Shown: in pieces, positions 7,761-61,458 of the stretch
Position numbering within the stretch: position 1 is the first letter of the stretch
Layout of the letters: each line of letters opens with the position of its first letter
Source of the DNA: Candidatus Promineifilum breve
GTDB taxonomy: Bacteria > Chloroflexota > Anaerolineae > Promineifilales > Promineifilaceae
Reading direction: 5' to 3'
DNA: 64,000 nt
Assembly: GCF_900066015.1 (NCBI RefSeq)
Contig: NZ_LN890655.1
Coordinates: 744,001 to 808,000, forward strand
Notes under the pieces: model-generated
The model's database searches: none
Told to the model about the DNA's origin: nothing
The model's input: only the letters and a program-made list of their open reading frames with translations
Translations under genes and position numbers: made by a program

Positions 7761-8660
7761 ATGGAAGAGCAATTGCTTGCCTTCTTGTCGCACCTGAAGC
7801 AGGAATACCATTACTCAGAAAATACCGTTGCCGCCTATCGAAATGACCTCAACCAGTTTCTGGACTACGTAGAGGGACGCGCCGGCGCCAACCTGACCGA
7901 TTGGGCGTCGGTATCCGAAGACGACATCGAGGCGTATTTGACCTTTATGAAGCATAAGGCCCAACCTTATGCTTCTTCGACCATCGCCCGCAAGGTGGCG
8001 GCGATCAAATCCTTCTATAATTTCCTGGCGACACAAGGCCTTGTCGATGAGAACCCGACGCTCGACGTCGATTCCCCCAAAGTGAAAAAGCGCCTACCAC
8101 AGACGTTGACCCTGGAAGAAGTTGAACGCTTGCTCGACGCCCCCCAGAGCGGTCACTCGGCCAAAAACCTGCGTGACGTGACCCTGCTCAACGTGCTATA
8201 CGAAACCGGGATGCGGGTGACGGAAGTGGTGTCGATTCAACTGGAGGACGTGGCCCTCGACCGCTCCGCCCTTTCCTCACCCACCCGCCAGGGCGACGCC
8301 CGCGACATCCCGATTGAGGAATCCACCAAAGCCCTCCTGGACCAATACCTGGCCGAAGGACGGCCGCAACTGGCCAAGGATAATCAGGAGCGCGCCCTTT
8401 TCCTGAACCATCGGGGAGAAAAATTGACCCGCCAGGGTTTATGGTTGATCATTAAGGGGTATGCCAAGCAGGCCGGGCTGAATACCGAGGTGACACCACA
8501 CACCCTGCGCCACAGCTTCGCCGTTCATCGCCTGAGCAAAGGCTCCAAACTGGAAGATATTCAGCGCCTGCTGGGACATGCCAATATTTCAACTACCCAG
8601 ATTTATATCCAGATGGAAGCGTCCGACCACGAACACGCAGCTACATCGGCCGTTGTCTGA
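7761..8660 (+). CDS. tyrosine recombinase XerC/XerD type
   Basis: A 299-residue tyrosine recombinase. Residues 1-90 form the SAM-like core-binding domain (LLAFLSHLKQEYHYSENTVA). The catalytic domain follows with the first arginine in LYETGMRVTEV (about residue 150), HTLRHSFAVHRL (His-x-x-Arg, about 248), LLGHANISTTQIY with the second histidine, and the nucleophilic tyrosine in TQIYIQM (about 281). Length and motifs fit chromosome-dimer-resolving XerC/D rather than a phage integrase. No attachment site or mobile cargo is visible. It reads toward the purine nucleoside phosphorylase gene with a 51-base gap. Confidence 0.9.
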   Translation: MEEQLLAFLSHLKQEYHYSENTVAAYRNDLNQFLDYVEGRAGANLTDWASVSEDDIEAYLTFMKHKAQPYASSTIARKVAAIKSFYNFLATQGLVDENPTLDVDSPKVKKRLPQTLTLEEVERLLDAPQSGHSAKNLRDVTLLNVLYETGMRVTEVVSIQLEDVALDRSALSSPTRQGDARDIPIEESTKALLDQYLAEGRPQLAKDNQERALFLNHRGEKLTRQGLWLIIKGYAKQAGLNTEVTPHTLRHSFAVHRLSKGSKLEDIQRLLGHANISTTQIYIQMEASDHEHAATSAVV

Positions 8661-8711: not shown

Positions 8712-9554
8712 ATGCCATCTGTCGAGATTAGCGCCGCCGCCGATTTCATTCGCCAACGGACACAACGCCGGCCAAAGATCGGCCTGATCCTTGGCTCCGG
8801 GCTGAACCCGTTGGCCGAGGCCATCGAATCGCCCGACGTCATCCCCACCGGCGACATCCCCCACTGGCCCATCTCCACCGTTCAGGGCCACGCCGGGCGC
8901 CTGGTCATCGGCGAACTGGAAGGGCAGGCGGTGCTCGTGCTCCAGGGGCGTATTCACTTCTACGAAGGCTATCCGATGGCGGTCGTTACGCTGCCCGTGC
9001 GGGTGATGATCGCCCTGGGCATCGAGATGCTCATCGTGACCAACGCCGCCGGGGGATTGAACCCATCCTTCGCGCCGGGCGATCTGATGCTCATCCGCGA
9101 CCACCTCAACTTTCCGGGCATGGCCGGCAACAATCCCTTATTTGGGCCAAACGACGAGGCTACTGGCCCCCGCTTCCCCGATATGACCCAGGCCTATGAC
9201 CCGGCGCTGCGCGACGTAGCGCGCCGGGCGGCGGCCGCGGCGGGGCTGACGCTGCGCGAGGGGGTCTACGCCTACGTCGCCGGCCCCAGCTTCGAGACGC
9301 CGGCCGAGCTGCGCTTCCTGCAAATTGCCGGCGGCGACGCGGTGGGCATGTCCACCGCGCCGGAAGTCGTCGTGGCCCACCATGCCGGGGTGCGCGTGCT
9401 GGGCATCTCCACCATCGCCAACCTGGCCCTGCCCGACCCGCCGCCCGGTCTGACGGTGAACCATGAAGAGGTGCTGGCCACGGGCCAACTGGCCGTGCCG
9501 CGCCTCATCCTTCTGGTGCGGGGCATCCTGCAACAACTGAGCGCGACGAGCTAG
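8712..9554 (+). CDS. punA: purine nucleoside phosphorylase (trimeric class)
   Basis: This enzyme splits purine nucleosides with phosphate into free base and ribose-1-phosphate in purine salvage. Family signatures are KIGLILGSGLNPLAEAI (phosphate-binding glycine/serine), VQGHAGRLVIGELEG, VLQGRIHFYEGYP, VTNAAGGLNPSFAPGDL, YVAGPSFETPAELRF and GMSTAPEVVVAHHAGV. At 280 residues it matches the trimeric PNP class acting on inosine and guanosine. It follows the Xer gene on the same strand and probably shares its transcript. Confidence 0.94.
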   Translation: MPSVEISAAADFIRQRTQRRPKIGLILGSGLNPLAEAIESPDVIPTGDIPHWPISTVQGHAGRLVIGELEGQAVLVLQGRIHFYEGYPMAVVTLPVRVMIALGIEMLIVTNAAGGLNPSFAPGDLMLIRDHLNFPGMAGNNPLFGPNDEATGPRFPDMTQAYDPALRDVARRAAAAAGLTLREGVYAYVAGPSFETPAELRFLQIAGGDAVGMSTAPEVVVAHHAGVRVLGISTIANLALPDPPPGLTVNHEEVLATGQLAVPRLILLVRGILQQLSATS

Positions 9555-35100: not shown

Positions 35101-35188
35101 AAATTACGAATTACGAATTAGGAATTACGAATGAAAGAGCGCTATCTTCATTCTTAATTCGTAATTCGTAATTCGTAATTCTTAATTC
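35101..35188. repeat. heptamer palindrome (AATTACG type)
   Basis: Left arm 35102-35138 holds five tandem AATTACG-like heptamers, and right arm 35147-35188 holds the inverted CGTAATT units. It begins one base after the S1-like stop codon and ends about 18 bases before the clpC start. Its AT-rich composition contrasts with the surroundings. Confidence 0.9.
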
Positions 35189-41535: not shown

Positions 41536-41573
41536 ATCCGCGAAAATCCGCCCCATCCGCCTCATCCGCGTTC
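41536..41573 (-). repeat. short repeat (GCGGATGAG type) supplying a stop codon
   Basis: On the minus strand this is GCGGATGAG, GCGGATGGG, GCGGATTTT and CGCGGATAAG in tandem. The stop codon of the O-antigen ligase gene (TGA, ending at 41562) lies inside the first unit. Confidence 0.65.
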
Positions 41574-43091
41574 CATCTCTTCTTCCTCCGCCACCAACCT
41601 AGTCCCCGCCGCCCCCATCCCCAACATCATCCAAAAAATCGTCACCGCATGGTGGAAGTCCATATTGAACAAATAATGGTCGAACACCCCGGCCACCAGC
41701 GCGCCGACGAGGGCGGCGTGGAGGCCCAGCCATACCGCGTCGTGGCGCTGGTCGGCCCGCGCCGCGTGGCGGTGGACGAAAGCGTAGCCGAAGACCGCGC
41801 CGATGACGCCCAGGAAGGCCAGCAGCCCGAACAGCCCCATGCGCCCGGCGATGGTGAAGTAGACGCTGGCGACGGCCAGGTAGAGATCAACGTCGGGCGA
41901 ACCGGCAAAGCCGACGCCGAAGATGGGGTAGCGGCCGATGAGGATGAGCGCATCCTTGTACTCGCCGAAGCGCATCTGCGTCGCCAGGTCGGTGCCCTGG
42001 AAGCCCTCGGCGAAACGGGCGATGTAGTCCTGGGTGATGGGCAGCAAGAGCAGCAGCAGGCCGACAACGACCATATAGGGCAGCAGGCGACGGTAGCGGG
42101 CCACGGCGACGAAACCCAGCCCGGCGGCCAGCCCCAGCATCGCCCCGCGCGAGAAGGTCAGCACCAGGGCCACGAAGATCAGCCCGGTGATGCCCCAGAT
42201 GACCGGGCGGCGGAAGAGCGGCCGTTTGGTCACCATCTGCGGCCCGACCAGCGCGCCGATCATCAACAGCAGCCCGCCCAGCGAGTTGGGATCGACCGAC
42301 GTGCCGATGGCCCGCTCCGATAGCGCCGGGTTCTCCTCGATGTAACGGATGACCCAGCCGCCGGGATAACCGAGGCGGGTCAGGGCATTCAATATCGTGT
42401 TGGCCGTGTCGTCGGGCAGCAGCCACAGACCGATGGCCACGGCCGCCGCCGCCGCGCCCATGAGCAGCAGGAACTTGACCAGCCGCTCCAGATGCGACCA
42501 TTCGCGGCAGTAGTCGATGACGACGATGACGAAACCCAGGCTCAGCAGCAGTTCGGCGAACTTGCGCAGTAGCGTCGGCGTCAGCGGGCCGTTGGCCAGG
42601 CCGAAGATGAAGGCGAAGACGGCGACGATGATGAACAGGATCAGCGGCAGGGCCACCGGCGCGGTGATAAGCCGCCGCTGCCGGCCGGTGACGATGCCCA
42701 GTAGCCAGACGAAGATGACCCCGCCCAGGGCGAAATCGAGGAACGTCGGCGTCACGCCGATGTCCACCGGCAGCGTGGCAAAGGGCAGCAGAGCGACCAC
42801 GGCGATGACGGCGAAGAAGCCGAGTTCGATGTTGCGCAGGATGAGCAGCGCCGCCAGCCCGCCCAGCAGCACGCCCGCCCCGGCCACCGGCCCGCCGAAG
42901 GCCAGGACGATGCCGCCCAGGACGGCCGTGGCGCCGAGGAGGAGGCCGAGGGCGAGGGGGGAAGAAGAAGGCAGGGGAGCAGGGGAGAAAGGGAGCAGGG
43001 GGGAGGAAGAGCCGCCGAGACGGCGGCGATCCTCGGCGCTCCCCTGCTCCCCTGCCCCCCTGCTCCCCTGCTCCCCTGCGTTTGTCGTCAT
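41562..43091 (-). CDS. O-antigen ligase/polymerase family protein (Wzy/WaaL) with repeat-encoded N-terminus
   Basis: A 509-residue polytopic protein of the Wzy_C family, which ligates or polymerises lipid-linked glycans outside the membrane. The signature periplasmic loop and neighbouring helix are seen in RFGEYKDALILIGRYPIFGV and LTFSRGAMLGLAAGLGF. About twelve helices span residues 48-490. Residues 5-45 (AGEQGSRGAGEQGSAEDRRR, SSPLLPFSPAPLPSSS) are encoded entirely by an octamer palindrome. The start overlaps the upstream stop as ATGA, so ribosomes are delivered before the repeat. The stop codon is also in a repeat. Confidence 0.85.
   Translation of the reverse strand: MTTNAGEQGSRGAGEQGSAEDRRRLGGSSSPLLPFSPAPLPSSSPLALGLLLGATAVLGGIVLAFGGPVAGAGVLLGGLAALLILRNIELGFFAVIAVVALLPFATLPVDIGVTPTFLDFALGGVIFVWLLGIVTGRQRRLITAPVALPLILFIIVAVFAFIFGLANGPLTPTLLRKFAELLLSLGFVIVVIDYCREWSHLERLVKFLLLMGAAAAAVAIGLWLLPDDTANTILNALTRLGYPGGWVIRYIEENPALSERAIGTSVDPNSLGGLLLMIGALVGPQMVTKRPLFRRPVIWGITGLIFVALVLTFSRGAMLGLAAGLGFVAVARYRRLLPYMVVVGLLLLLLPITQDYIARFAEGFQGTDLATQMRFGEYKDALILIGRYPIFGVGFAGSPDVDLYLAVASVYFTIAGRMGLFGLLAFLGVIGAVFGYAFVHRHAARADQRHDAVWLGLHAALVGALVAGVFDHYLFNMDFHHAVTIFWMMLGMGAAGTRLVAEEEEMERG
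42971..43079. repeat. octamer palindromic element translated inside the O-antigen ligase gene
   Basis: Left arm 42971-43003 is tandem GCAGGGGA octamers with variants, loop 43004-43037 contains GCCGCCGAGACGGCGGCG, and right arm 43038-43079 is tandem TCCCCTGC octamers. It is wholly within the coding frame. The unit has no stop codon in any of six frames because its period (24 bases) covers every phase. Confidence 0.9.
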
Positions 43092-45544
43092 CGCGCGTCT
43101 ACCCTCACCTGGGTCAAGGTCAGGAAGTCGTCGGTCAGGCGGCCGTCGGGCGTGACTTGTTGCAGGCGGTCGAAGCCGCCCTCGGCCGTGCGCGTGTAGA
43201 GGCCGACGATGAGCGGGTAGACGTCGGGTGGCGTATCGCCATTGACAGTTAAAGTCAAACGCAACTCGGCCACTTCACCGACCGCCCAACTGCTCGTCGG
43301 TAAAGGCGGCGTCACGTCGGCCGCGGCGTAGCGGGTCGTGTCCGCGCCGACGATCTGGGCGAAGAAGGTGAAGTCGCCCGGCAGCGGTTCGGACGGCCGC
43401 CAGTAGGTCGTCACGTTCACCGTCTCGCCGGCGGTCACCCGCCGCGGTTCGACGGCAAAGCCGACCAACTCCAGCCCATGCTCAAAGAACAACGAGACGG
43501 GATTGGGGTATGGCCCCTCGGTCGCGGTCAGCGGAATCGTCGCCAACACCGCAGCATCGCCGCCGCCGGCCGTCAAGCGCTTGCCCGTGGCGAAGTCATA
43601 TAGTCCCACAGTCAGTTCCAGTTCGGCCGGGGCCATGGCTGTCGGCGGGATGGTCAGGACGTACTCGTCCACCAGGCGCTCGCCGGGTTGCAGCAGGCTT
43701 GTCGGCCGCAGGCCCGCGCCGGGGTACATATCCCGTTGGGCAATCGGCCGGCCCAGCACCGGATCGTTCAGATGCACGAAGACACTCCAGTCGCGTTCCA
43801 TCGCTTGCAACACTTCCCACTCCAGCCGGACGCGCACAGCGTCGCCCGGTCGTGGATCGTCGTATTCTACCTCATATCCGACCAGCCGCAGCGCTTCACC
43901 GAATTCGACGGCCGTCTGTTCGGCCAGCGGGCCGGTGTAGGTCGGGGGCAGGTAGGCGGGGCGAATCCATAGCCACGGCGCGGCGGCGGCGACGAGGAGC
44001 AGAAATACGGCCACACCCATGATGATCCAATCGCCCAGCCGCCGGGATGGCGGCGCTCCCCTGCTCCCCTGCGCCCCTGCCCCCCTGCGCCCAATCTCCC
44101 CCAACCCGACGGCCATGATGGTAGACAACGACGAAATGGCCGTGAACACCAATCGCCCCTGCGATGACCAGGTGGTGGTGGCCCATTGGATGAGGCCGTA
44201 GACGACGGCCGCGGCAAACAGCACGTTGACGATGAGGCCGAAGTGGCGCTCGACGGGACGCAGCAGGCAGGGGAACCAGCCTTCCCGACTCTCGCGCCAC
44301 GCCCGCGCTTCGGCCAATAGCAAGCGGAGCAGATGCAGGACGAAACCGACCACGCTCAAGAGCAATATGGCGTTGAGCACGGTGTAGACCCACATCCACA
44401 TGGGCACGTTGACGCCGCCGAACAGGCCCCAGAACGACATCATAAAACCGCGCCGCTCGCCCCACAGTTGGGCCAGCGATGCCGGGTGGCCGCGCTGCCC
44501 CAGGACGGCGATGAAGGCGCTCCAGCCCAGCCAGTCGCCGTAGAGGACGATGTTGCGGTAGTACCACCAGCCGGCGATGGCGAGGATGGGGAGGGCGAGG
44601 AGGGCGACCGCTGATAGGAGATCGCGGACGGCGGTCGCAGGGGAGGCGTGGGCCGGACGAGAGTCCGGGGGCAGGGGAGCAGGGGAGAAAGGGAGCAGGG
44701 GAGAAAGGGAGCGCTGACGTGACGGCAGCTCTTCCGCCCCCCTGCCCCCCTGCTCCCCTGCTCCCCTGCACCACCCTTGCCACGCCGCCACGACGGCCGT
44801 ACCCAGAGCCATCGGGATGAGGCCCAGCGTGCCTTCCTTGGTCAGGATTGCCAGGCCGATGATGACGCCGACTGTGAACCACTCCGTCCAGCGAACTGGC
44901 GTATACTTTTCGCGTCGTTTCGCGACGATGCGCATCATCAGCAGCAGGGCCAGCGACGTTAGCGGCACGGCTAGATTATCATTATTGACCGCGCCACTGA
45001 TGAACAGAAACATCGGCAGGAAGGCGTTGATGGCTGCCGCGCCGAGGGCCACTGCCGGGCGACCAGGCGCGGTCGCGGCGGCGATGCGATAGGTCAGATA
45101 GACCGTGGCCGCGCCCAAGAGCACCGAAACCAGCCGCACCACGCGCACGGCCAGCAGCGCCCCGGCCCAGGGATCGGCCGCCGGGTCATGGACGGCCAGA
45201 TTGTTGTTGCCGTCGGGCGTGATCAGGCCGTTGTCGACGTGGGGATTGAGCCAGCGGGCCTGGGCCATGTCGGACTGGTCGATCCAAAAGGTCAGCGCCG
45301 CGCCGAGGTAGTAGTAGAGCGGCGGCTGGCTGGCCTCCTGATTCCACGGCCCGGCCAGCGCCGGATCGAAGACCTGCACCGGCAAGGAGTTGCCCCCCGC
45401 CAGATGCTGTACCATGGGGTAGTGCCATAGCTCGTCCGACGCCTCGAACGGCGGCGTGACAAGGGCATAGGTAAAACCCAGGGCAACGTAAAGCAGGAGG
45501 ATGAGCGCCAGAAGGCGGCGTTCGGTGGCGGGATGGGCAAGCAT
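43088..45544 (-). CDS. GT-C-type membrane glycosyltransferase with two in-frame repeat insertions
   Basis: An 818-residue polytopic enzyme. The first loop has VTPPFEASDELWHYPMVQHL with acidic residues, and PWNQEASQPPLYYYLGAALT, as in GT39/DUF2142-like enzymes. Two octamer elements are translated inside it: GAGEQGGRGAEELPSRQRSL (about residue 260, with SPLLPFSPAPLP after it) and RGAGAQGSRGAPPSRRLGDW (about 485). Both fall in loops between predicted helices. The C-terminal third holds two copies of the beta-sandwich module shared with other GT-C proteins. It is coupled to the O-antigen ligase gene by ATGA. Confidence 0.8.
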   Translation of the reverse strand: MLAHPATERRLLALILLLYVALGFTYALVTPPFEASDELWHYPMVQHLAGGNSLPVQVFDPALAGPWNQEASQPPLYYYLGAALTFWIDQSDMAQARWLNPHVDNGLITPDGNNNLAVHDPAADPWAGALLAVRVVRLVSVLLGAATVYLTYRIAAATAPGRPAVALGAAAINAFLPMFLFISGAVNNDNLAVPLTSLALLLMMRIVAKRREKYTPVRWTEWFTVGVIIGLAILTKEGTLGLIPMALGTAVVAAWQGWCRGAGEQGGRGAEELPSRQRSLSPLLPFSPAPLPPDSRPAHASPATAVRDLLSAVALLALPILAIAGWWYYRNIVLYGDWLGWSAFIAVLGQRGHPASLAQLWGERRGFMMSFWGLFGGVNVPMWMWVYTVLNAILLLSVVGFVLHLLRLLLAEARAWRESREGWFPCLLRPVERHFGLIVNVLFAAAVVYGLIQWATTTWSSQGRLVFTAISSLSTIMAVGLGEIGRRGAGAQGSRGAPPSRRLGDWIIMGVAVFLLLVAAAAPWLWIRPAYLPPTYTGPLAEQTAVEFGEALRLVGYEVEYDDPRPGDAVRVRLEWEVLQAMERDWSVFVHLNDPVLGRPIAQRDMYPGAGLRPTSLLQPGERLVDEYVLTIPPTAMAPAELELTVGLYDFATGKRLTAGGGDAAVLATIPLTATEGPYPNPVSLFFEHGLELVGFAVEPRRVTAGETVNVTTYWRPSEPLPGDFTFFAQIVGADTTRYAAADVTPPLPTSSWAVGEVAELRLTLTVNGDTPPDVYPLIVGLYTRTAEGGFDRLQQVTPDGRLTDDFLTLTQVRVDAR
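44036..44094. repeat. half octamer element inside the GT-C gene
   Basis: This is a loop-like GCCGCCGGGATGGCGGCG followed by one arm of TCCCCTGC-type octamers (44053-44094). It is read in frame within the 43088-45544 gene and resembles the loop plus right arm of the element at 42971-43079. Confidence 0.8.
44667..44770. repeat. octamer palindromic element inside the GT-C gene
   Basis: Left arm 44667-44712, loop 44713-44735 (with CGGCAGCTCTTCC) and right arm 44736-44770 form the same kind of palindrome as at 42971-43079. It is in frame in a membrane-protein loop. Confidence 0.88.
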
Positions 45545-47732: not shown

Positions 47733-47798
47733 TAGTGGATAGTGGATAGTGGATAGTGGGTAGTGGTCAGTGGTCAGTGGTCAGTGGTCAGTGGTCAG
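47733..47798. repeat. 9.4-copy perfect-register heptamer array
   Basis: Nine tandem heptamers drift from TAGTGGA to TAGTGGG and CAGTGGT, filling the gap between the GT2 start and tatD. On the minus strand the units read TGACCAC and one provides the tatD stop codon. No inverted arm is present here. Confidence 0.92.
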
Positions 47799-49103: not shown

Positions 49104-49182
49104 GTTAGTGGGCAGTGGGCAGTGGACAGTGGGCAGTGGGCAGACTGATCACTGCCCACTGCCTACTATCCACTGATCACTA
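49104..49182. repeat. heptamer palindrome (GTGGGCA type)
   Basis: Left arm 49105-49143 is five tandem GTGGGCA-type heptamers and right arm 49146-49182 is the inverted set. It fills the gap between the phosphohexomutase stop and the thioesterase start, touching the stop codon. Confidence 0.9.
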
Positions 49183-50598
49183 TTTCAGACCGGCGATGCG
49201 CAGCCCATCCTGCAAAATGTCCTGCACCCGGTCGGCGTGGGTGGTCTCGGTGTAGACGCGGATGATCGGCTCGGTGCCGCTGAAGCGGATGAGCAGCCAG
49301 CCGCCGTCTTCCATGTGGAACTGGAAGCCGTCCTGGGTGGAGATGTTGGTCACCTTCAGCCCGGCAATGGTTGCCGGGCGGGCGGCCAGCACACGGGCCT
49401 GCACCTCGTCGCGGCGGGCGGTCTCGAAGGCGGTGTCGATGCGGTCGTAGAAGTGGGGGCCGACCTTCTCAAATAACAAGTTGAGCAGTTGCGACGGCTT
49501 CTTGCCCGTCTTGAGCATCATGTCCAGCAGGAAGAGGCCGGCCATGATGCCGTCGCGGTCGGGCACGTGGCCGCGGAAGGCGTAGCCGCCGCTCTCCTCG
49601 CCGCCGATCATCGCGTCGACTTCCTTCATCTTGGGGGCGATGTACTTGAAGCCCACGCCGGTCTCGTAGACGGGCACGTCGTAGAGCTTGCCCAATTTAT
49701 TGAGCATTTTGGTGGTCGAGATCGTCTTGACGATGGGGCCGCGCTGGCCGCGAATTTCCAGGAAGTAGTAGCCCAGCAGGCCGAAGACGCGCAACTGGTC
49801 GATGAAGCGGCCGTCCTCGTCGCCCAGCCCCACCCGGTCGGCGTCGCCGTCGGTGATGATGACCACGTCGGCGTCCAGCAGCGGGGCGTAGCTCAGCCCG
49901 TCGTCGATGTTGGGCGGAATGGGTTCCGGCCGCGACATATGGGGGAAGACCGGGTTGCGCTCGTTGTGCACCTCGTGGATCTGCGTCGCCCCGCCGCCCA
50001 GCAAGCGCGGAAACCAGCCCGCGCCGTTGCCCCACATGCAATCGACCAGAACGTTGAAGCCGGCGGCCTTGATCGGTTCGATGTCCACCAGGCTGTGCAG
50101 TAGATCGATGTAGGCCGGGGCGGCGTCGAACTTGATGACCAGGCCGTCGCTCAGCGCGTCGTCGAGCTTCATGCGCCGGACGCCATCGATTGTGGGGATG
50201 GCCGCCTCGATGCGCTTCAGATCGGCCGGGGGAATGGCCCCGCCGCCGGCGTCGCGCACCTTGAAGCCGCAATCGTGGGGCGGGTTGTGGCTGGCGGTGA
50301 TGTTGATGGCCCCGGCGGCGCGCTTGTCGGCCACGGCGTAGGAGATGGCCGGGGTGGGCGTGTTGCTCTGGGTCAGCCAGACCTTCACGCCGTTGGCGGC
50401 CAGCACCTCGGCCGAGGCCGCGGCGAAATGCTCGGCCTGGAAGCGCTGGTCGTAGCCGATCACCGCGCCTTTCTCGGCCTGGCCCGTCTCGCGCAGAAAG
50501 GCGGCGAAGCCCTGGGCGCAGCGGCGCACGTTGTCGAATGTATAATCCTCGGCGATCCGGCCGCGCCAGCCGTCCGTACCGAATATGATCTGCGTCAT
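49180..50598 (-). CDS. phosphoglucomutase/phosphomannomutase family protein
   Basis: A four-domain alpha-D-phosphohexomutase of 472 residues. The phosphoserine loop is [13 protein letters not shown], the metal-binding loop [16 protein letters not shown], the sugar-binding loop [19 protein letters not shown] and the phosphate-binding loop [12 protein letters not shown]. It interconverts hexose 1- and 6-phosphates, supplying precursors such as mannose-1-phosphate for GDP-mannose, which the neighbouring gmd uses. The start has a strong AAGGAGA site. Sugar specificity cannot be read from the sequence. Confidence 0.93.
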
Positions 50599-50610: not shown

Positions 50611-50730
50611 AGGAAGAGAATCCACAGATTTCACAGATTCCACAGATTGAAGAGAGTGGTCAGTGGTCAGACCCGTTCGCGTTCCCCTCTTAAATCGGTG
50701 TAATCTGTGTAATCTGTGGATTCTCCCTTC
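50611..50730. repeat. nonamer palindrome with a nested heptamer repeat
   Basis: Left arm 50611-50650 and right arm 50694-50730 are inverted CACAGATT-type nonamers. The loop contains AGTGGTCAGTGGTCAG (50655-50670), a heptamer repeat of the family at 47733. One repeat family has thus landed inside another. Confidence 0.88.
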
Positions 50731-50738
50731 TTTCTCTT

Positions 50739-52684
<1,946 letters not shown>

Positions 52685-52685
52685 A

Positions 52686-52795
52686 ATGGTCAGTGGTTAG
52701 TGGGCAGGGGAGCAGGGGAGCGGGGGTGCAGGGGAGCGCCGCCGTCTCGGCAGCTCTTCTTCCCCCCTGCTCCCTATCTCCCCTGCTCCCCTGCA
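52686..52795. repeat. mixed heptamer and octamer element
   Basis: A short heptamer run (52686-52704) is fused to an octamer palindrome (arms 52704-52735 and 52761-52795) whose loop, GCCGCCGTCTCGGCAGCTC, is the reverse complement of the loop at 43004-43037 with small changes. It lies between the methyltransferase-like gene and a 97-residue gene. Confidence 0.88.
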
Positions 52796-55585: not shown

Positions 55586-56755
55586 TCATTTGTCGGCGTG
55601 GGCCGGTAAGGACTCTTTCTCCCCTGCTCCCCTGCCCCCCTGCTCCCCTGCGCCTCGAATGGCAATACTATCGGGAGAGATAACCTTCAACCCCACACGC
55701 GACAGCGTCGGCGGATCGATAAGCATATTGGTATAAGAAGCATTCGCCAGCGGGCAGTAGCACTCCTTGGCGGCGATGCTGCGGCGGACTTCCCTGATCT
55801 TGTCGCCGAACCAGATTTCCTTGAAATCGTAGTTATGGTCGCGCAGGTTGCCCAGGTTATCGGCGCGGACACAGCAGGGCCAGATCGTGCCGTCGGCGTA
55901 GATCTGGGCGCTGGCCCAGCCGGCGTAGCAGTCGATGACCTGATCCTGCTCCTCCAGAATGCGCTTGACCAGCTTGTAATACTCCACCCGGAAGGCCTCG
56001 GTGATGCGGGCCACGCCCCGGTAGCGCTTGCTCTCGACGTAGGCGATGAGCCGGTCGATGGCCGCGTTGTACTGCTCCGGGCTGGGGGTGATGGGCAGGC
56101 CCACGGTGTCCAGTTCGACGCGCGGCTCGGCGATCTCGGTGATGAACTGGTCCGCGCCGGATTGTTCGGCGTAGGCGATCAGTTCGTCCAGATGGCCGAC
56201 GCTGAACACGGAGACGACGGAATGGATGCCGATGTTGAGATTGGGCAGGCTATCGCGCAGGGCCAGCAGTTGCCGCAAGCGCTCCTCGAACTTGATGAAG
56301 TTACCCGGCACGCCGCGGATGAAGTCGTGCTTCTCGCCCACGCCGTCGAGCGACAGGTTGATGATCAGCTGGCTCTCCGGGCAGGAGCGGGCGATGCGCT
56401 CCACCTTGTCGGGGATGGTGCTGAGGATGCTGTTGGTAGGGATGTTGATGATGCCCGGCCGGCAATGTTCGTAGGCCAGTTGGGCCAGTTCGACGATGCC
56501 GCCGAACATGAACGGCTCGCCGCCGCTGATGGTGAACCAGTAGGGGGCGCGGCCGAGCGAGGCCAGCGCCTTGTCCCACTCGTCCAGCGTCATCTCGTTC
56601 TCGCGCTTCATCCAGATATTGCAGGTCAGGCAGCGCGAATTGCAGCGCGGCGAGGGGGATAGCGTGATGTTGAGGGGTAGCAATTTAGGCCAGCCGAAGC
56701 GGCGGTAGGCCTGAAAAAGGGGTACGCGGGCCAATACGCCCGCCATTGAATTCAC
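55586..56755 (-). CDS. radical SAM protein with C-terminal SPASM-like cysteines
   Basis: A 389-residue radical SAM enzyme. The 4Fe-4S/AdoMet motif is CNSRCLTCNIW (about residue 37-47), followed by ISGGEPFMFGG and IINLSLDGVGEKHDFIRG. The C-terminal part has clustered cysteines (DCYAGWASAQIYADGTIWPC, KECYCPLANASY) typical of a SPASM auxiliary cluster domain, so it may modify a peptide or sugar. The last 20 residues (RGAGEQGGRGAGEKESLPAH) are encoded by an octamer arm. The GTG at 56755 (GTGA overlap with the upstream GT2, GGAG 11 bases before) is used; an ATG at 56746 is possible. Confidence 0.83.
   Translation of the reverse strand: MNSMAGVLARVPLFQAYRRFGWPKLLPLNITLSPSPRCNSRCLTCNIWMKRENEMTLDEWDKALASLGRAPYWFTISGGEPFMFGGIVELAQLAYEHCRPGIINIPTNSILSTIPDKVERIARSCPESQLIINLSLDGVGEKHDFIRGVPGNFIKFEERLRQLLALRDSLPNLNIGIHSVVSVFSVGHLDELIAYAEQSGADQFITEIAEPRVELDTVGLPITPSPEQYNAAIDRLIAYVESKRYRGVARITEAFRVEYYKLVKRILEEQDQVIDCYAGWASAQIYADGTIWPCCVRADNLGNLRDHNYDFKEIWFGDKIREVRRSIAAKECYCPLANASYTNMLIDPPTLSRVGLKVISPDSIAIRGAGEQGGRGAGEKESLPAHADK
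55615..55652. repeat. single octamer arm (TCCCCTGC type)
   Basis: Four to five tandem TCCCCTGC octamers with one CCCC variant lie in the 3' end of the radical SAM gene and are translated as its tail. No second arm or loop is present. Confidence 0.85.
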
Positions 56756-57645
56756 TTTGTTTCCAACTCCTTGGTCGTCGCGGCGATTTCCCACACGGTG
56801 TGGCTGCGCCGCGCCTTATAATCCCGGCGGCCCAGGTAGCGGCCGTAGGCTTCCAGGGCCACGACGCGCGCCGTCCACCATAGTTCTTTCGGTCGCCAGG
56901 TCAGATGGCGCAATAGCAGCCCGCCGATGCGCCCGCCGCTCATGGTGCTGACCGCGTAGCCCAGGTGATCCTGCATCTCCAGATGCCCGGCATAGATGCG
57001 CCGCCGCTGGCGCAGGAAATCGTCGACCGTCTCCGGCCCCTTGTTGTAGACCACGGCTTCGGGCACGTATTGCACCGCGTAGCCCTGGCCGCGGATGAGC
57101 GGCTCCACGCTGGCCTCATCGACGGCCGTATGCGGCGGGATGCGGGCGAAGACCTTGCGAAAGGCGATCATCTCCCCGGCCTTGAAGCCGCCGCTGACGT
57201 TCATCTGGTGGTGCAGCTCCCATAGCAGGTGGGCGGCGAAGCCCATGAACGTGGCCGGATCGTTGACCGGCATGGGGCGGCAGGCGGTCATGCCGATCTC
57301 CGGGTCGGCGAAGGGGGCTACCAACTGCTCCAGGCTGTCCTCGCCCGGCAGCAGGTCGGCGCTGCTGAGCACCAGCACGTCGCTGGTGGCCTGGGCCAGG
57401 AACAGGTTCATGGCCGACGCCTTGCCCTCGCGCGTCGGCTGGCTGATCAGGCGGATGCGCCCGTCGCGATCAGCCGCCCGGCAAACGACTTCTTCCGTCC
57501 GGTCGGTGCAGCCGCTGGCAACGACGATGATCTCGGTGACATCGACACGCGCCAGGCGCGATTCGCCGACGCGGGCCAGCAGGCGGCCGACGTTGGCCTC
57601 TTCGTTGTGGGCCATGATGCCCATCGAGCAGCGGATGCGTTCCAT
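56752..57645 (-). CDS. family 2 glycosyltransferase
   Basis: A 297-residue GT2: CSMGIMAHNEEANVGRLLAR, EIIVVASGCTDRTEEVVCRA, QPTREGKASAMNLFLAQATS and VLVLSSADLLPGEDSLEQLV (acidic metal site). The acceptor region (HTAVDEASVEPLIRGQGY) and the basic C-terminus (RRRIYAGHLEMQDHLG) follow. It probably adds sugar to a lipid-linked or protein acceptor in the same pathway as the coupled radical SAM enzyme; this link is inference. The ATG at 57645 is preferred to a GTG at 57660. Confidence 0.85.
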   Translation of the reverse strand: MERIRCSMGIMAHNEEANVGRLLARVGESRLARVDVTEIIVVASGCTDRTEEVVCRAADRDGRIRLISQPTREGKASAMNLFLAQATSDVLVLSSADLLPGEDSLEQLVAPFADPEIGMTACRPMPVNDPATFMGFAAHLLWELHHQMNVSGGFKAGEMIAFRKVFARIPPHTAVDEASVEPLIRGQGYAVQYVPEAVVYNKGPETVDDFLRQRRRIYAGHLEMQDHLGYAVSTMSGGRIGGLLLRHLTWRPKELWWTARVVALEAYGRYLGRRDYKARRSHTVWEIAATTKELETK

Positions 57646-59629: not shown

Positions 59630-60636
59630 CAGACGTAATGCTCCAGGTGGTCGCGGAAGTAGTCCATCGTCCGTGTCAGGCCGTCGCGCAGGCCAACCAA
59701 CGGCCGCCAGCCCAGTTTGCTGCGAATCTTGCGGTAGTCGCCGTAGAAATCGCCAATGTCGATGCGCTTGCGGTCGGCGGGGAACGGGGTCAGGGCGAAT
59801 GAGCCGCCGCCGTTGACCTCGATCATCAGCCGGGCCAGATTGATGAGGTTGATCGGTTCGTCGCCGCCCAGGTTGTAGATCTGGCCGTCGGCCACGTCGT
59901 GGGCGGCGACCATCAGCAGGGCCTCCACCACGTCGTCGATGTAGTTGAAATCGCGCACCTGCAAGCCGTCGCCGAAGATTTGCAGTTCGCGCCCCTCCAG
60001 CAATTGGCGGAACCACCAGCCGATGAACGTCTGCCGGGCGTCGCGGATGCGCATCCGCGGGCCGTAGGTATTCGTCAGGCGCAGCGACACCGTCCGCAGG
60101 CCATAGACGTCGTGGTAGACCATGTGGTACCACTCGCCGGCCAGTTTGTTGATGCCGTTGACGTCGGCCGGTTGCAGCGGGTGGCGCTCATCGACCGGCA
60201 GGTATTCGGGGCGGCCGTAGATCTGCCGCGTGCTGGCAAAGACGACCTTGGTGGCCGGGTTGCCATGGCGGCACGCTTCCAGCAGGGAGAGCTGGCTGCG
60301 GGCGTTGATCTCCAGGTCGGTGTAGGGATCGATCATGCTGTCGGTGTGGCTGACCTGCCCGGCCAGATTGAAGATGATGTCCTGCCCCTGCACCAGATAG
60401 CGCAGGCCGTGCTCGTCGCGAATGTCGGCGATGTTGATCCGCACCTGATCTTCCAGCCCGGTCACGTTGAAGACGTTGCCGCCGTATTCGGGGATGAGCG
60501 AATCGACGATGAGCACCTCGGCCCCCAGCCCCAAGAGGCGATGGGCGATGTTGGAGCCGATGAAGCCCAGTCCACCGGTGATGAGGACGCGTTTGCCGTT
60601 GAAGAAGGTGAGGTGATCGGTGGGGACGGTGGGCAT
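59629..60636 (-). CDS. NAD-dependent sugar epimerase/dehydratase family with atypical active site
   Basis: An extended SDR of 335 residues. The N-terminal motif is VLITGGLGFIGSNIAHRLLG, followed by IIFNLAGQVSHTDSMIDPYT, VFASTRQIYG and ADVNGINKLAGEWYHMVYHD. The usual catalytic Tyr of Tyr-x-x-x-Lys is Asn here (NGINK), while the Lys is kept. GDGLQVRDFNYIDDVVEALL and YNLGGDEPINLINLARLM are typical of NDP-sugar epimerases. It probably modifies a sugar nucleotide, but a member without the catalytic Tyr may work differently. Coupled to the SDR gene downstream. Confidence 0.85.
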   Translation of the reverse strand: MPTVPTDHLTFFNGKRVLITGGLGFIGSNIAHRLLGLGAEVLIVDSLIPEYGGNVFNVTGLEDQVRINIADIRDEHGLRYLVQGQDIIFNLAGQVSHTDSMIDPYTDLEINARSQLSLLEACRHGNPATKVVFASTRQIYGRPEYLPVDERHPLQPADVNGINKLAGEWYHMVYHDVYGLRTVSLRLTNTYGPRMRIRDARQTFIGWWFRQLLEGRELQIFGDGLQVRDFNYIDDVVEALLMVAAHDVADGQIYNLGGDEPINLINLARLMIEVNGGGSFALTPFPADRKRIDIGDFYGDYRKIRSKLGWRPLVGLRDGLTRTMDYFRDHLEHYV

Positions 60637-60638
60637 GG

Positions 60639-60689
60639 GATAGTGGGTAATGGTTAGTGGGTAGTGGGTAGTGGGCAGTTGTCAGTGGA
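60639..60689. repeat. heptamer array (TAGTGGG type)
   Basis: Seven or so degenerate TAGTGGG/CAGTGGA heptamers lie between the epimerase start and the GT2 gene. The GT2 stop codon (ending at 60682) is within the array. Confidence 0.85.
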
Positions 60690-61458
60690 TGGCGCTTGAC
60701 GGCGATTCGTCATTCGTCGTTCGTCGTTCGTCATTCATCACTTGCCCTTCGCGCCGCCAAACCAGTTGCATCCACAACTTGGTCAGGTCGCGGGCCACCT
60801 GGGCCAGGCGGTGGAAGCGGAAGAATTGGGATTTGCCGTAGGCGCGGTGGAAGTGATGCACCGGCGTCTCGGTCAGGCGGAAGCCGGCGTCCTGCACCTT
60901 TTTCATCAGTTCGACGCAGATGACGCCGCTGTTGCTGGTGAGTTGCACCTGCTCGAAGACCTCGCGGCGCATCAGGCGGAAGTCGCAATCCACGTCCTTT
61001 AGCTTCAGGCTGAAGGCCAACTTGATGATGTATTGGTAGATGCGGCCGATGACGATGCGGTGCAGCGGATCCTGGCGCTCGATCTTCCAGCCGTTGATGA
61101 AATCGATGTCATCGGTGATCAGCGCGGCCAGATTCTTGAGTTCGCGCGGATCATACTGGGCGTCGCCGTCGGTGTAGAATATCCACTCCTTGGCCGCGCC
61201 ATAAAAGCCGCTGCGCAGCGCGCCGCCGTAGCCGCGGTTCTGCGGATGGTGGATGATGCGCACTTCGTCGGGGTAGACGCGGGCCAGCTCATCGAGCACG
61301 GCCGCGGTGTGATCGGCGCTGCCGTCGTTGACGACGAGCACTTCGTAGTCGTCGGTCAACTCGCGCAGAGTCAGCAGGACGGTGATGACCATGCTGCTGA
61401 TGGTGCCGGCGTCGTTATAGGCCGGGAAGAAGGCGGAAATGCTGGGCTTGTCGGTCAT
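60682..61458 (-). CDS. family 2 glycosyltransferase (DPM1-like) with repeat-encoded tail
   Basis: A 258-residue GT2 of the polyprenyl-phosphate mannosyl/glucosyltransferase type: ISAFFPAYNDAGTISSMVIT, VLVVNDGSADHTAAVLDELA, PQNRGYGGALRSGFYGAAKE, IFYTDGDAQYDPREL and DVDCDFRLMRREVFEQVQLT. The N-terminal motifs make it a good candidate to load a sugar on the lipid carrier for the GT-C enzymes. The last 20 or so residues (VMNDERRTTNDESPSSAIH) and the stop come from two heptamer repeats, not from the fold. Confidence 0.87.
   Translation of the reverse strand: MTDKPSISAFFPAYNDAGTISSMVITVLLTLRELTDDYEVLVVNDGSADHTAAVLDELARVYPDEVRIIHHPQNRGYGGALRSGFYGAAKEWIFYTDGDAQYDPRELKNLAALITDDIDFINGWKIERQDPLHRIVIGRIYQYIIKLAFSLKLKDVDCDFRLMRREVFEQVQLTSNSGVICVELMKKVQDAGFRLTETPVHHFHRAYGKSQFFRFHRLAQVARDLTKLWMQLVWRREGQVMNDERRTTNDESPSSAIH
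60706..60741. repeat. heptamer array (TTCGTCA/TTCGTCG type)
   Basis: Five tandem heptamers in the 3' end of the GT2 gene, translated as part of its C-terminal tail. No inverted arm. Confidence 0.85.

Follow-up and report, generated by a model that had tools for sequence, protein, structure and literature searches.

Near the start of an O-antigen ligase gene of Candidatus Promineifilum breve, a palindrome of G-rich octamers lies within the open reading frame. This locus raises two questions: whether ribosomes translate the palindrome, and how such a sequence comes to reside inside a gene. They were approached by computational analysis of the 64,000-nucleotide stretch of DNA that holds the gene (hereafter, the window), of further stretches of the same genome (G000), and of up to seven relatives (G001 to G007). 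The feature is, with good probability, one copy of a dispersed palindromic element composed of short tandem repeats, and it is most likely read into protein as a tail of low complexity.

Structure and probable translation of the ligase palindrome

Convergent arrays of the octamer GCAGGGGN, with four and five units, form the palindrome at positions 42971-43079 (Table 1), exactly where the preliminary description had placed it. That description had treated the repeat as a single octamer run, whereas it consists of two imperfect tandem arrays around a 37-base spacer; one unit, for example, reads GAAAGGGA. The octamer is, as had been claimed for all six frames, free of stop codons on both strands; it yields only the translations (AGEQGSRG)n and (SPAPLLPC)n.

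The overlap of the ligase start with the upstream stop as ATGA was likewise recovered, as was the onset of the repeat nine bases after the ATG. The translated N-terminus reads MTTN-AGEQGSRGAGEQGSAEDRRRLGGSSSPLLPFSPAPLP-SSS. Read-through of the palindrome by the ribosome had been called proven on the strength of this coupled start. The overlap is kept in four of five orthologues (in G005, TAA is followed by ATG without it), and in-frame ATG, GTG, and TTG are all absent between codons 1 and 69; a later standard start would thus cost conserved N-terminal membrane sequence. In-frame CTG codons at positions 32, 40, and 58 remain as unlikely alternative starts, which keeps the claim short of proof. 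From the sequence, we strongly infer that ribosomes would read through the palindrome. We also infer that the repeat tail is probably translated in vivo and lacks a function; the ligase copy would then be an in-frame part of an N-terminal tail, most likely translated and without a catalytic role.

Orthologues in five genomes of the same genus are 79-84% identical to the ligase overall, and none contains the intact palindrome. Their alignment to the window protein begins only at residues 36-41, and their own N-termini are short, polar, and variable; an apparent decayed array is present at the site in G006. AlphaFold models of both host proteins, the ligase among them, have low confidence (mean pLDDT of 46 and 50) and therefore permit only the weak remark that the repeat stretches are coil outside helices in both. 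The first predicted ligase helix in its model spans residues 45-66.

Table 1. Repeat elements and host genes. Positions refer to the window unless they carry an L designation.
Feature	Positions	Strand	Evidence or remark
Heptamer-armed palindrome of the same build (AATTACG / CGTAATT)	35102..35188	+	
O-antigen ligase (Wzy_C) gene, element host at N-terminus	41562..43091	-	Pfam PF04932, E 6.5e-14; orthologues
Left arm, 4 octamer units (GCAGGGGA GCAGGGGA GAAAGGGA GCAGGGGG)	42971..43002	+	
Spacer, 37 bases, with its own small hairpin (GCCGCCGAGACGGCGGC)	43003..43039	.	
Right arm, 5 inverted octamer units; encodes AGEQGSRGAGEQG in ligase	43040..43079	-	
ATGA overlap: stop of 43088-45544 and ligase start 43091-43089	43088..43091	-	Kept in G001, G003, G004, G006
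PMT_2-type membrane glycosyltransferase gene, two further elements	43088..45544	-	PF13231, E 6.1e-11
Single 4-unit array, in frame, residues 486-496 of 43088-45544 product	44057..44088	-	
Two-armed palindrome (5 + 4 units), in frame, residues 259-292 of 43088-45544 product	44671..44769	+	
Two-armed octamer palindrome, intergenic	52704..52794	+	
Radical SAM/SPASM gene, C-terminus lengthened by octamer array	55586..56794	-	
Single 4-unit array, residues 382-392 of radical-SAM protein	55620..55651	-	
Nonamer palindromes around heptamer palindromes (nests)	50617-50718; L066:5411-5546; L233:9166-9284; L076:2802-2915		

A dispersed element inside and between genes

The window contains 24 matches to GCAGGGGAGCAGGGG with up to two mismatches, compared with 0.42 expected in shuffled sequence. 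The same peptides had been reported from two other genes, and they do occur there: twice in the glycosyltransferase gene at 43088-45544 and a single time close to the C-terminal end of the radical-SAM protein. Relative to the single array at 44057..44088, orthologues are 42 bp (G001, G003, and G004) or 15 bp (G006) shorter, and the palindrome at 44671..44769 occupies a loop that is variable among orthologues. The radical-SAM orthologues of G002 and G007 terminate just upstream of the array position. More heptamer arrays and palindromes of like build are located at 35102-35188, 47733-47798, 49107-49183, 52056-52136, and 60636-60740 of the window, some of them hybrid pairs with unlike units on the two sides.

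Across the genome (5.03 Mb in three contigs, 99.96% complete), the 17-mer GCAGGGGAGCAGGGG has 637 matches with at most one mismatch, and its reversed control has none. A census of 1.64 Mb of genome stretches yielded 116 octamer elements, from which about 208 are estimated for the whole genome. In outline, the element would consist of a short spacer between about four GCAGGGGN units and about as many inverted ones. In the sample, 106 arms have four units, 34 have five, and only 5 have three; all 48 simple pairs are convergent and none is divergent. Spacers vary in sequence. On contig 1, octamer elements look sparse in the first fifth (about 1-780 kb) and denser from about 1.2 to 3.7 Mb.

Genes were called with our own codon-usage script, by which 87% of the sequence is coding. 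Of the 116 elements, 54 are located inside called genes, 6 lie on gene edges, and the other 56 are intergenic. Per base, octamer elements are still denser between genes than within them. Single arms inside genes number 34; in 27 of them the coding strand carries the G-rich unit, so that the peptide is the polar AGEQGSRG and not SPAPLLPC.

Element hosts, essential enzymes among them, include TrpE, DnaX, PDH E2, PreP, a MiaB-like enzyme, RecQ, a SpoU methylase, and several PMT_2 proteins. In TrpE, a 74-base palindrome encoding the peptide GAGALPVSPAPLLPR lies inside Anth_synt_I_N and splits this N-terminal domain; even so, a single open frame contains matches to both domains. The element of PDH E2 is located between the lipoyl and E3-binding domains, again in an open frame, and that of DnaX follows domain III. 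In PreP, the MiaB-like enzyme, and RecQ, domain matches flank or enclose the element within a single open frame. The PreP-type protease contains two separate octamer elements (L066:7868-7943 and 8168-8207), and in G007 the protease carries a two-armed element of its own, confined to the second site. Five relatives are each 63 bp shorter at the PreP site, a presence/absence pattern which indicates that gains or losses of elements do occur.

Both flanks of G000 array sites were anchored in up to seven relatives and the lengths were compared. Among non-zero length differences, 51 of 59 in-gene cases are multiples of three, compared with 7 of 17 intergenic cases (Fisher p 0.0004); the 59 in-gene comparisons are not independent, since the same G000 sites are reused against several relatives. 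Two sites account for five of the eight exceptions; both lie no more than about 65 bases from a called start, and the true start of the gene may be further downstream.

The preliminary description had also held that the unit, being stop-free, can enter genes and leave them intact. Stop-free units are indeed commoner in genes: the in-gene fraction is 0.47 for the octamer, 0.29 for heptamers that are stop-free on both strands, 0.18 for those stop-free on one strand, and 0.11 for those stop-free on neither, a trend that is partly definitional because an array containing a stop cannot sit within an open reading frame. However, stop-freeness does not suffice, as the downstream frame needs to be kept separately. 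Heptamers with stops on one strand only lie in genes 13 times in the stop-free direction and 3 times in the other, which is also partly definitional.

In-gene copies would persist only at tolerant places in proteins, such as termini, loops, and linkers, and only where the net change in length is a multiple of three. About half of the copies are in genes, including trpE and dnaX, whereas in-gene repeats are usually deemed rare accidents. Because these copies lie in genes with the frame kept, the genus represents a natural screen for protein sites that tolerate about 10 to 40 additional residues. The copies also carry a warning for annotation: peptides like GAGEQGSR should not be taken for domains, and the starts or ends of genes close to them are easy to miscall.

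Species-specific spellings and the spread of the arrays

The octamer family is one of several. In the same 1.64 Mb sample, 225 arrays have a period of seven, 165 a period of eight, and 83 a period of nine, many of them in inverted pairs. The families include AATTACG, AATTAGG, AATGACG, AGTGGTC, GGTGGCG, and CACAGATTT. Nonamer palindromes (CACAGATTN x3) enclose an AGTGGTC heptamer palindrome as if one element had entered the loop of another; such nesting was seen in six to eight places (Table 1). A repeat of about 160-180 bp is dispersed in many copies, mostly on contig 2 (L232 query 458-636 and 8960-9130), and has relatives in G003, G004, and G005. The 12-kb contig 2 stretch L232 has little synteny across the genus.

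Different species spell their units differently. Three consecutive GCRGGGGN units occur 652 times in G000, 98 times in G002, 55 times in G007, a few times in G004 and G005, and never in G003, G006, or G001. Three consecutive GAARGGGN units occur 78 times in G003, 40 times in G005, and never in the six other genomes of the genus. The differences extend to individual sites. At the intergenic site L066:3015, G000 has an octamer palindrome, G002 has AATTAGG arms, G007 has a GGTTCCA-type palindrome, and G003 and G005 have other heptamers. At the in-gene site L064:16353, the octamer of G000 corresponds to heptamer arrays in G003, G005, and G006 and to a mixed array in G004. Unit spellings at shared sites are species-specific.

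To what extent sites are shared can be judged from 28 G003 elements, of which 10 could be placed on sampled G000 DNA. Octamer arrays occupy 8 of the corresponding positions, heptamer arrays 2, and no position is empty; the octamer share is inflated because some G000 stretches were picked for holding octamers. For control positions in the same G003 pieces, the figure is 39 of 319 (overlapping windows). In the fair subset of grid-chosen stretches (L064 and L076), a small sample, 4 of the 10 sites remain and all are octamer arrays. An extra 0.4 Mb of grid sequence gave no additional pairs of G003 and G000 sites. One hybrid element, with octamers on the left and heptamers on the right, lies in the same place in G003 (L383:4472) and G000 (L225:9611-9764), and both of its unit spellings differ between the two species.

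Arms were also compared with one another within the sample. Identical arm pairs number 91, compared with 88 expected at linkage equilibrium, so there is no excess of master-copy haplotypes. Within an element, the left and right arms resemble each other no more than shuffled arms do, and the same holds for neighboring units within arms against shuffled units. These three results argue, respectively, against recent copying from one master, against hairpin-templated correction between arms, and against recent slippage, and these candidate processes were rejected. Any model of copying has to account for the lack of shared haplotypes and of likeness between the two arms.

One reading of these patterns is that the arrays are ancestral and that their units were altered together in each lineage, in place, through gene conversion or a drive linked to DNA uptake. 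The near-exclusive spelling counts at common positions favor this possibility, as does the L383/L225 hybrid, which retains its octamer-left, heptamer-right layout in both species despite the differing spellings. However, several sites differ by family (heptamer versus octamer) and not by spelling, the mapped sample is small, and no candidate donor or uptake factor was identified. Species-wide change in place is thus a reasonable possibility that falls short of being probable. A fuller version, in which a genome-wide drive rewrites dispersed units to the species spelling while positions and the two-arm layout are inherited and the frame is kept, even in essential genes, is put forward tentatively.

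Alternatively, the elements could be non-autonomous palindromes moved by a transposase in the manner of REPINs or MITEs, with each species re-inserting its own version into the loops of older palindromes. Inverted doublets of fixed polarity, with single arms as possible remnants, agree with such movement. So do presence/absence cases such as PreP and the nesting of elements, which includes an octamer arm within heptamer arms in G004. The arms, however, do not share haplotypes, and no target duplication was seen by eye at PreP, in a comparison with relatives that are too diverged (about 75-86% DNA identity) for a firm reading. Moreover, none of the three PF01797 (Y1_Tnp) genes in the genome has octamer arrays within 1.5 kb, and the in-gene fraction far exceeds that of REPs, a class defined as extragenic. 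Transposition in this form is doubtful, although quite possible.

We hold the two models of spread, re-insertion at older palindromes and lineage-wide conversion in place, at similar weight. Spread would most likely involve lineage-specific copying or homogenizing of units among dispersed arrays together with occasional new insertions; classical transposition from a fixed master copy would be less favored than such homogenizing.

A third explanation is that structure drives the arrays, with four G-tracts forming a G-quadruplex or the palindrome forming a hairpin, in a regulatory role. The sharp preference for four units fits this idea, and both spellings retain four G-tracts. For a single arm, the predicted fold is a quadruplex (-30.5 versus -2.7 kcal/mol), and the GGGAATC repeats, which share the four-unit preference, form quadruplexes in vitro (PMC4692102). 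In contrast, a hairpin is the predicted fold of the full element, also with quadruplexes permitted. Four is likewise the commonest unit number of heptamers that lack G-tracts (AATTACG), and three that of nonamers, which is partly a detection limit, since the threshold hides shorter heptamer arrays. With the same proviso, the heptamer peak led us to reject the G-quadruplex as the sole cause of four units. A structure-driven origin is therefore unlikely.

The element could also be removed or skipped, by RNA excision or translational bypass, such that the peptide is never made. The strong hairpin predicted for the full element in the ligase sense (-92.5 kcal/mol) would suit this scheme. Yet removal needs no multiples of three, which the in-gene length differences mostly are, and the 13-to-3 orientation bias (partly definitional) also speaks against it, making this explanation very improbable. 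An assembly artefact is more improbable still: repeats misassemble easily and several relatives are fragmented drafts, but the genome is nearly complete in three contigs and independent genomes carry arrays at the same sites.

Relation to known repeat systems

The closest match to the element is with the repeats described by Rehm et al. (2015). The GGGAATC repeats of Xanthomonas prefer four units, occur as single arrays or convergent pairs, are 7-11% intragenic, and form quadruplexes in vitro; their Nostoc counterparts are GGGGA(C/T)T (PMC4692102). Both systems are dispersed G-rich tandem arrays with a four-unit preference, in single or convergent form, at positions common to relatives. They differ in the unit, which is the octamer GCAGGGGN here and a heptamer (GGGNATC or GGGGA(C/T)T) there, and in the intragenic share, which is 47% here (54/116, in called genes). 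In addition, spelling at shared sites varies between species in our genomes, the arrays are mixed with 7- and 9-mer palindromes, and the quadruplex is only predicted, for an isolated arm. In cyanobacterial records the same octamer is frequent, but 97 of 108 occurrences are single-armed and 3 are convergent. The triplet (GCAGGGGA)3 is widespread, occurring in Nostocales, other cyanobacteria, some Chloroflexi, a few Phycisphaerales, Verrucomicrobia, and other records (L091-L207).

The Rickettsia palindromic elements are also in-frame palindromes at tolerant places in many unrelated genes (Ogata et al. 2000, 2002, reviewed in PMC10969869). However, they make up a family whose members, about 150 bp long, share conserved non-repeat sequence and a conserved peptide, a feature that is absent here. 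The arms of the present element are tandem octamers, specify no conserved peptide beyond the repeat, and are equally common between genes. Because each resemblance fails in at least one defining feature, the element resembles the Rehm-type repeats and the Rickettsia palindromes but is classed as a member of neither group.

REPINs, which occur with RAYT transposases, are likewise inverted doublets with a spacer, and their single copies may be remnants (Bertels and Rainey 2011, PMC3116915). Unlike the present arrays, REPs are extragenic and RAYT-linked; the arms here are tandem arrays for which no RAYT link was found. The TAACTGA heptamer repeats of Beggiatoaceae, cyanobacteria, and Bacteroidetes are also short tandem units spread across distant, often filamentous lineages, but those are direct repeats near start codons, carry stops in forward copies, and are rarely inverted (PMC4679880).

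Species-specific spelling itself has a precedent. The shared positions and differing spellings described above invite comparison with sequences that act in DNA uptake. The DNA uptake sequence dialects of Neisseriaceae are short repeats whose spelling depends on the species, that are often inverted, and that also occur within genes. These sequences are not tandem arrays, and an uptake role for the octamer is hypothetical. Such dialects are mentioned in PMC12061091. If spelling does change jointly at inherited sites, the arrays would represent concerted evolution of dispersed short repeats beyond the known uptake-sequence systems, and would require a homogenizing factor that could be sought.
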